From contig SCSU01000063.1 of NCBI GenBank assembly GCA_004299275.1, positions 1 through 34,463 of the forward strand: 34,463 bases of DNA, read 5' to 3'. A model generated the notes under the pieces. It made no database searches, was not told the DNA's origin, and saw nothing but the letters and a program-made list of their open reading frames with translations. Made by a program: the position numbers and the translations under genes. Each line of letters starts with the position of its first letter. Positions within the stretch are counted from its first letter, which is position 1. Of the stretch, positions 29,135 through 31,207 are shown in pieces. Source of the DNA: Patescibacteria group bacterium (GTDB lineage Bacteria; Patescibacteriota; Patescibacteriia; 2-12-FULL-57-11).

Positions 29135-31207
29135 TTACCGTCTCAGCATCGCCAAAAATTCTTTTTCGCCGATTATTTTTACTCCGAGCTTTTGCGCCTT
29201 GTCCGCCTTGCTCCCCGGCTTTTCTCCGACCACGACGTAACTGGTTTTTTTGGAAACGGATTCGGAAACGTCGCCGCCGCGCTCGCGAATCTGCCGCTTG
29301 GCCTCGTCCCGCTCCATGGCCCGGAGCGTGCCGGTTAAAACAAAATTTCTATCGGCGAGCGGCAAGCCGGCGGCCGGCTGCGCCGGCAAAACCCGCACGC
29401 CGGCGTTCAGAAAATCGTTAATCAATTTTTGCGAAGCGGTATCAGACAAAAACTCGCCAATCGCCTTGGCTACCACCTCGCCAATATCCCGAATTGCCAA
29501 AAGCTCTTCCTCTTTGGCGCGGCGAAATTTCTCCAGAGAACGAAAGTTAAGCGCCAGGTCGCGCGCCGTCTCCTCGCCGACGTGGCGAATGCCCAAGGCG
29601 ATGATAAACCGCTCGAGCGGCACTGACTTTTTGCGGTTGATTTCTTCAACAATTTTTTTTGCCGAAAGCTCGCCAAAACGCTCGAGCGCGGCAATATCCC
29701 CCTCCTTCAGCCAAAAGATGTCCGCCGGCGTGCGAATCAGCCCTTCATTCAAAAACCGTTCAATATTTTTGGGCCCCAAACCAATGATGTCAAAAGCGAC
29801 CGCGGTGTGGATGATTCGCTCCGTCTCCTGAGCGTAACAGCGCCGGTTGCTGCAGACGAGCGCAACCTCGCCGGGTCGGCGGCTGACTGGCGAGCCGCAG
29901 ACCGGGCATTTTTTCGGTTCATGAATTTCTCGCGCGTTTTTGGGCCGGAGACGGGTGAGCGCCTTTTTTACTTTGGGGATGATGTCGCCGGCTTTGTAGA
30001 GAATCACCGTGTCGCCGATTTTTAAATCCAGCCGCCGGATTTCGTCTAAATTATGGAGCGAAGCGTGGGTCACCGTTGTCCCGCCGATCCAAGTCGGCTT
30101 AACCACCGCAACCGGCGTCAGCGCTCCGGTGCGGCCGACAAACCACTGGACATCTTCCACTACGGTTGTCGCTTCCTCGGCCGGGAACTTCCAGGCAATC
30201 ATGCCCCGCGGCGCTTTGCCCACCACGCCCAACTGTTCAAAAGCAGCGTTATCTGCGACGCGGATGACCGTGCCGTCAACCCAGTAATCAAGTTTTTCGC
30301 GGTGCGCGAGCATCCGCTTCCAAAACGCGGCGACATCGGCGATTGACTCCGCCGCGCCGGAATTCGGGTTAGTCCGAAAGCCGAGGAGGCGAAGCAGTTC
30401 CCACTCCGCGGTATGCGTCCCCTGCCCGACGCGAGTCACGAGGTCCCAAGCAAAAAAATCCAGCTTCCGCGAGGCGGTTATTTTTGGGTCAAGCTGGCGA
30501 ATGGCGCCGGCGGCGGCGTTCCGAGGGTTAGCAAAAACTTCTTCGCCTCTCTTTTTTTGTTCGCGGTTCAATTCCGCAAATGCCCGCTTGGACATATAAA
30601 CCTCGCCGCGAATTTCCACCTCGCCCTTAAGCGAACTGAGGAAGCTGGATAATTTGGCTCGAGGTTGGACCTCCTCGGGAGGTCCAACCTCGAGCGCTGC
30701 CCGCATCTCTCCGCCGGTCGGCTGACGCAGACTGAGCGGCACGGCCTCAATCGTTTTGACGTTGGCCGTCACGTCCTCGCCGTAAACGCCGTCGCCGCGC
30801 GTTGCCGCGGTCTTCAACACGCCATCCTCGTAGACCAGTGAAATCGCCAAGCCGTCGAGCTTAACCATGCAGAACATTTCAAAACTTGGCTGTCCGAGCA
30901 GTTTGGCGATTCGCGCGTGCCAGTCGCCAAATTCCTCCGGCGTAAAAACATCCTCCATCGAAAACATCCGGCTCGGGTGCCGCACCTTGCGGAATTCTTT
31001 TTGCACCGCGCCGGCGACCCTTTGCGTCGGCGAATCCGGCGTGACGAGCTCCGGGAACTGCTCCTCCAGCTTAAAGAGCTCGTGCTTTAAGGAATCAAGC
31101 GCGGCGTCAGAGAGCTCCTGCCGGTCCAGCACGTGATAAAGATAGCGGTGATGGTCTATCTCGCGGCGGAGTTTGCTGATACGTTCTTTTGCTTGCTCGC
31201 GGGTCAT
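29135..31207 (-). CDS. ligA: NAD-dependent DNA ligase
   Basis: [69 protein letters not shown]-terminal BRCT. Confidence 0.97.
30657..30695. repeat. Palindrome family A copy inside ligA: gctcgaggttggacctcc-tcg-ggaggtccaacctcgagc
   Basis: 18-bp perfect arms; translated in frame as (L)[12 protein letters not shown]. Confidence 0.95.

Follow-up and report, generated by a model that had tools for sequence, protein, structure and literature searches.

A palindrome within a Patescibacterial ligA gene is probably an in-frame copy of a REPIN-like miniature element

Introduction

REPs are named for their extragenic location, and to our knowledge in-frame palindromes have been mainly a curiosity of Rickettsia, with no known mover. 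REPINs are extragenic doublets associated with RAYTs (PMC3116915, PMC2817692). Intragenic, in-frame GTAG/CGTC REPs and REP dimers were described by Di Nocera et al. in 2013 (PMC3733652). Their hosts include uvrA, uvrB, tRNA synthetases, and a DNA ligase of Opitutus terrae; two Xanthomonas carry different REPs at about one recB site, and RPE-4 and RPE-6 are themselves CGTC REPs (PMC3733652). RPEs are palindromic repeats found in frame in conserved proteins, with a neutral or slightly detrimental effect in gmk; those of the RPE-1 type measure 105 to 146 bp and have no known transposase (PMC2229807). A literature search combining RAYT or REP with Patescibacteria or Parcubacteria, which mostly did not extend to subscription papers, returned nothing relevant.

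The element described here lies in a Patescibacteria group bacterium with a genome of 1.0 Mb. The window, i.e., the whole stretch of DNA analyzed, comprises 34,463 nt (contig SCSU01000063.1 of GCA_004299275.1, positions 1-34,463). With REPIN/RAYT systems the element shares inverted doublets of a short palindromic unit that form one long hairpin, many copies in a genome-specific family, and members that flank a Y1 HUH transposase gene. It differs in that the doublet measures about 33 nt, compared with the 71- to 110-bp spacing in Pseudomonas, and in that many copies are genic rather than extragenic. Neither GTAG nor CGTC, which mark the two REP superfamilies, occurs in the family alignment or its flanks; the units begin with GGAG, which is part of the stem and not a separate tag. 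Because extragenic location and the GTAG/CGTC tag are both lacking, we call these elements REPIN-like and stop short of counting them among the members. Like intragenic REPs, they have in-frame copies in DNA repair and tRNA synthetase genes, but the hosts here are Patescibacteria, the units are untagged, 13 of 15 copies are genic in one genome, and one LigA loop is occupied by several unrelated elements across families.

A sequence-only reading of the window had likened the palindrome to RPEs. The likeness holds for a dispersed, lineage-specific palindromic element in frame in an essential gene, apparently translated as RPEs are in conserved proteins. The architecture (inverted doublet, Y1 flanking), however, is closer to REPIN/RAYT than to the 105- to 146-bp RPE-1: at 33 to 39 bp the elements fall short of the roughly 100 to 150 bp of RPEs, are unrelated to them in sequence, come from outside Rickettsia, and are linked to Y1 genes.

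Results

The palindrome and its host gene are as follows.

29135-31207, minus strand: ligA, NAD-dependent DNA ligase of 690 aa, all domains intact (Pfam)
30657-30695, minus strand: LigA palindromic doublet, 18-bp perfect arms and 3-nt loop, 13 codons, A171-A184 of LigA

The palindrome reads GCTCGAGGTTGGACCTCC-TCG-GGAGGTCCAACCTCGAGC, with 18 of 18 arm positions paired around the 3-nt loop, so that the 18-bp perfect inverted repeat reported in frame within ligA is borne out; it is also the top scorer (53 bits) of the family covariance model, R1. The ligA product matches Pfam models DNA_ligase_aden, OB, HHH_2, and BRCT, and its modeled fold agrees with LigA crystal structures. In the AlphaFold model (mean pLDDT, 88.8), a kind of check that the sequence-only reading had proposed, the element forms the turn that joins helices 165-173 and 180-192 of a helical hairpin; pLDDT over the element block averages 63, the lowest in an otherwise confident model. 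The element ends about 15 residues ahead of RGEVYMSK and not, as first described, just before it. About 30 extra residues had also been claimed, and the gap from PLxL to EVRGEV does span 32 residues versus about 4 in Escherichia coli LigA, but only 13 codons are palindrome and the loop is nearly as long in palindrome-free relatives.

We compared 179 distinct LigA genes, most of them from the same class, in which the whole aligned stretch varies naturally from 20 to 79 residues. The loop has 46 codons in our genome and 42 to 44 in palindrome-free relatives (L007, 43; L014, 42; L013, 44), a net change of +2 to +4 codons compared with a 13-codon element. The alignment indicates that the palindrome is lineage specific, whereas a long helical-hairpin loop is common in the class; judged from these sequences, most of the approximately 30 extra residues belong to that common hairpin, the turn of which the element appears to have replaced or filled. 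Because the net gain is smaller than 13 codons, simple insertion into a 43-codon loop is insufficient; codons must have been replaced or trimmed, or the ancestral loop must have been shorter. Elsewhere among these genes, the LigA loop of L079 is encoded by tandem heptamer GTTCCAA repeats (VPSSKFQVPSK), and ligA of L007 (1501-3570, strand +) is stop-free in antisense over its entire length.

Hairpins recur in this loop. The 179 genes contain 31 gene-internal hairpins with a score of at least 10, of which 7, spread over 6 genes, fall in the loop; the loop accounts for 2.5% of codons, and 0.8 would be expected there (binomial p = 9e-6, a somewhat generous value, as our own gene was already known when the test was made and two of the hairpins come from a single gene; 5 other genes carry a loop hairpin). 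The loop hairpins are mostly unrelated in sequence, and within a single family (f29) three genera (L015, L146, and L156) have three different putative repeats at this place. Since a variable surface loop tolerates inserts, site-specific targeting is not needed to account for the recurrent occupancy.

Alignment of 22 doublets gave the R1 consensus RAGRTYNGAYCTCC-N3-GGAGRTCNRAYCTY, an inverted doublet in which two copies of a self-palindromic 14- to 15-nt unit face each other around a 3-nt loop. The exact core pattern has three copies (the third at C54:12906, with a 4-nt loop) and badly undercounts the family, so a covariance model was needed. The genome was surveyed by searches and by the stretches around matches. 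A genome-wide search had been suggested by the sequence-only reading, which took absence elsewhere as evidence against its idea; the R1 model found 141 strand matches at about 70 places, and from 0 to 6 places per genome in 53 relatives. A 14-mer search gave 90 strand matches, compared with 16 in a reversed-pattern control, mostly as inverted pairs with starts 17 nt apart.

Over the 14-bp stem, 98.7% of cells are paired, and five pairs have changed on both sides (40 cells); none of 500 shuffles scored as high, and slid structures pair in only 26 to 58%. The both-side changes include columns 6/26 and 7/25, which pair only in the full doublet, so it is the whole inverted doublet, and not just an inner mini-hairpin, that is maintained or copied. 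Arm-to-arm copying may be another source of this covariation. Target-site duplications were not seen immediately beside the element; five copies (0.6 expected) show a 4-nt match lying 3 nt beyond the 31-nt core, which emerged from 12 tests and is not claimed. Neither excision nor new insertion was seen, and no two strains differing in the presence of the element were found in the collections. Openness of all six frames, present in 15 of 22 R1 doublets and 21% of shuffled palindromes, was rejected as a defining trait because the element of a second genome, G031, has four open frames.

The window itself contains further R1 doublets and doublets of two other families.

24022-24054, minus strand: second R1 doublet (R1 model), in frame in lgt, encoding RSDHLGRSDL; overlooked in the sequence-only reading
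23823-24599, minus strand: putative lgt (prolipoprotein diacylglyceryl transferase), host of the second copy
20335-20367, minus strand: third R1 doublet (R1 model), from which a methyltransferase ORF takes its final codons (GPPEEVQP) and TGA stop
20334-21053, minus strand: UbiE-like methyltransferase (Pfam), 3' end made by the element
33314-33374, no strand: two inverted AAGGTTGGACCTCC units separated by a long loop, within the N-terminal part of a pilin-like ORF
1463-1495, no strand: doublet of a second family (GGATGTTGAACATCC), intergenic
14156-14189, no strand: GGATGTTGAACATCC-family doublet, intergenic
19408-19446, no strand: GGATGTTGAACATCC-family doublet, diverged, upstream of a DHFR-like gene
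23785-23817, no strand: GGATGTTGAACATCC-family doublet, intergenic, adjoining lgt
18826-18869, no strand: doublet of a third family (GACCTTGAAGGTC, 10-nt loop), intergenic
32697-32740, no strand: GACCTTGAAGGTC-family doublet, near a gene start

That the palindrome occurs elsewhere in the window had been stated from the first, and its 27-nt core is indeed found exactly at 20338-20364, with 0 occurrences expected in 100 shuffles. The units at 33314-33374 probably lie upstream of the true start of the pilin-like ORF. The GGATGTTGAACATCC and GACCTTGAAGGTC families have an R1-like design with different sequences and are intergenic or near gene starts in the window. The methyltransferase ORF that ends in the element lies just upstream of thyA. 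Another dispersed repeat, of the GTCATTCCTGCGAAGGCAGGAATC type, forms a 56-nt inverted pair at 2521-2576 and 26358-26413 (89% complementary).

At least 12 of the 71 R1 places lie within a recognized domain or between recognized domains of a single protein. The hosts are LigA, Lgt, MiaA, QueA, LeuRS (at 391 and 733), a GT4 glycosyltransferase, UvrB, Trp/Tyr-RS, CysRS, SHMT, and a PMT-like protein. About six more copies are in the N-terminal parts of recognized ORFs, where the true start may lie downstream; 17 of the 71, one of them the methyltransferase-ending copy at 20334, have no covering ORF, and the rest fall in unverified ORFs. Since conserved genes are the recognizable ones, we claim no target preference for a class of genes. 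Aligned homologs from relatives lack the Lgt element, and the LeuRS element is likewise lineage specific; each adds a net of about 8 residues at a length-variable loop. For most other genes, the in-frame position is assigned by the Pfam match alone. The net gains (8 in Lgt and LeuRS, 2 to 4 in LigA) are smaller than the element's 11 to 13 codons, for which loss or replacement of native codons are candidate explanations. At the LeuRS loop that holds the element in our genome, relatives L309, L312, and L317 have a Nudix-like insert (VEEGEDIVAAAKREIHEETGY) of about 110 to 120 residues in the editing-domain region.

Our genome encodes two Y1_Tnp genes (Pfam PF01797, above cut-off). Their ORFs carry the HUH and YIHxNP motifs typical of RAYTs (MPNHFH; KYIHLNP and RYVHLNP), but both proteins score below the cut-off of 80 of the curated NCBIfam RAYT model NF047646 (43 and 46 bits). 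The Y1 gene on contig C55 is bracketed by R1 members (C55:9827-9854 and 10452-10479) and holds a tandem element copy in frame within its own ORF; the one on contig C45 has two R1 members, on one side only. The flanked C55 gene (L005, C55:8554-11775) lies next to, and is divergent from, a DNA polymerase IV-like gene, the N-terminal ORF of which also holds element sequence. Y1_Tnp genes occur in 29 of the 53 relatives. In genome G037 (L378), identical palindromes, ATGTTTAGGAGTTCAACTCCTAAACAT, flank a Y1 transposase gene on both sides.

An independent case comes from G031, which belongs to another family of the class. There, GGAAGCTGAGCTTCC and its inverted copy occupy the same LigA loop (L015), and the element differs in sequence from the R1 doublet. 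A search for the unit gave 30 forward matches versus 0 in the control. The Y1 gene of this genome has a unit upstream, a doublet directly downstream, and another in frame inside. Thirteen of the 15 doublets examined are in frame in recognized proteins, namely PolX, enolase, pyruvate kinase, DUF3048, RecG, UvrC, Pol IV, dTDP-glucose dehydratase, Der (twice), a TIGR00375 protein, LigA, and the Y1 protein itself. The TIGR00375 proteins of both genomes have a doublet in frame (L262 and L389).

Discussion

We consider it likely that the LigA palindrome belongs to a REPIN-like family of miniature elements, one member of which was copied in frame into the gene. We infer that the element transposes: a RAYT-like Y1 transposase would move it, or would have done so in the past, as hairpin single-stranded DNA. 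Copies that land in genes would survive only where the frame is kept and the loop is tolerant, and in LigA the element would be translated, not skipped, and be nearly neutral for the ligase.

An alternative hypothesis is that this is an RPE-like or MITE-like element with a non-Y1 mover, its presence beside Y1 genes being a by-product of abundance. For many MITEs and RPEs no transposase is known, the C45 elements are one-sided, and Y1_Tnp genes are widespread among relatives. Flanking on both sides was nevertheless found in two genomes that are unrelated and whose elements differ in sequence, and the Y1 gene of L378 is a third one enclosed by palindromes; we regard a non-Y1 mover as unlikely.

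Much less probable, in our view, is a functional hairpin selected in place as a terminator, attenuator, mRNA stabilizer, or recombination site. REPs elsewhere can act in mRNA, and the 17 copies without a covering ORF could be read in that light, but ligA, leuS, or uvrB would suffer from a strong terminator within it, the copies sit at different places from one species to another, and variable loops are favored.

In some mitochondria, gene-internal hairpins a few tens of nucleotides long are skipped. By this precedent of byp elements, translational bypass or removal from the mRNA could yield a ligase lacking the element. Skipped elements need not keep the frame, however, whereas copies in recognized genes are frame-keeping and stop-free, and in G031 the 13 of 15 doublets are in open frames though only four of the six element frames are open. 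We give this explanation very little credence, slightly less than a functional hairpin.

That the segment is ordinary coding sequence, palindromic by chance or kept so for the protein, is consistent with its open, hydrophilic peptide and with a loop ancestral in the class, but is already refuted by the repeat family for practical purposes: two copies of the 27-nt core are present in the window against none expected from shuffles, some 70 members lie in unrelated genes and gaps, and the DNA is read in different frames, as the LigA peptide, as RSDHLGRSDL in Lgt, and as GGWTSAGRSNL in MiaA.

Returning to the REPIN-like reading, intragenic REPs and Rickettsia RPEs are already known; what is new is that the elements are Patescibacterial and largely protein-coding and that one LigA loop is a recurrent landing place. 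REPIN-like, Y1-linked elements are thereby placed, in a phylogenetically remote group, inside ligase, helicases, excinucleases, polymerases, glycolytic enzymes, and tRNA synthetases. We speculate, with less than even confidence, that Patescibacterial REPIN-like elements are largely protein-coding parasites, that translation-compatible ones are found mainly in conserved genes (especially repair and tRNA-related genes), that one LigA loop is a repeated landing site for unrelated elements, and that such elements regularly furnish streamlined genomes with new protein loops. The findings make testable the addition of protein segments by mobile DNA without gene death, and they urge caution in that a long extra loop of a CPR protein can stem from a parasite and not from adaptation.
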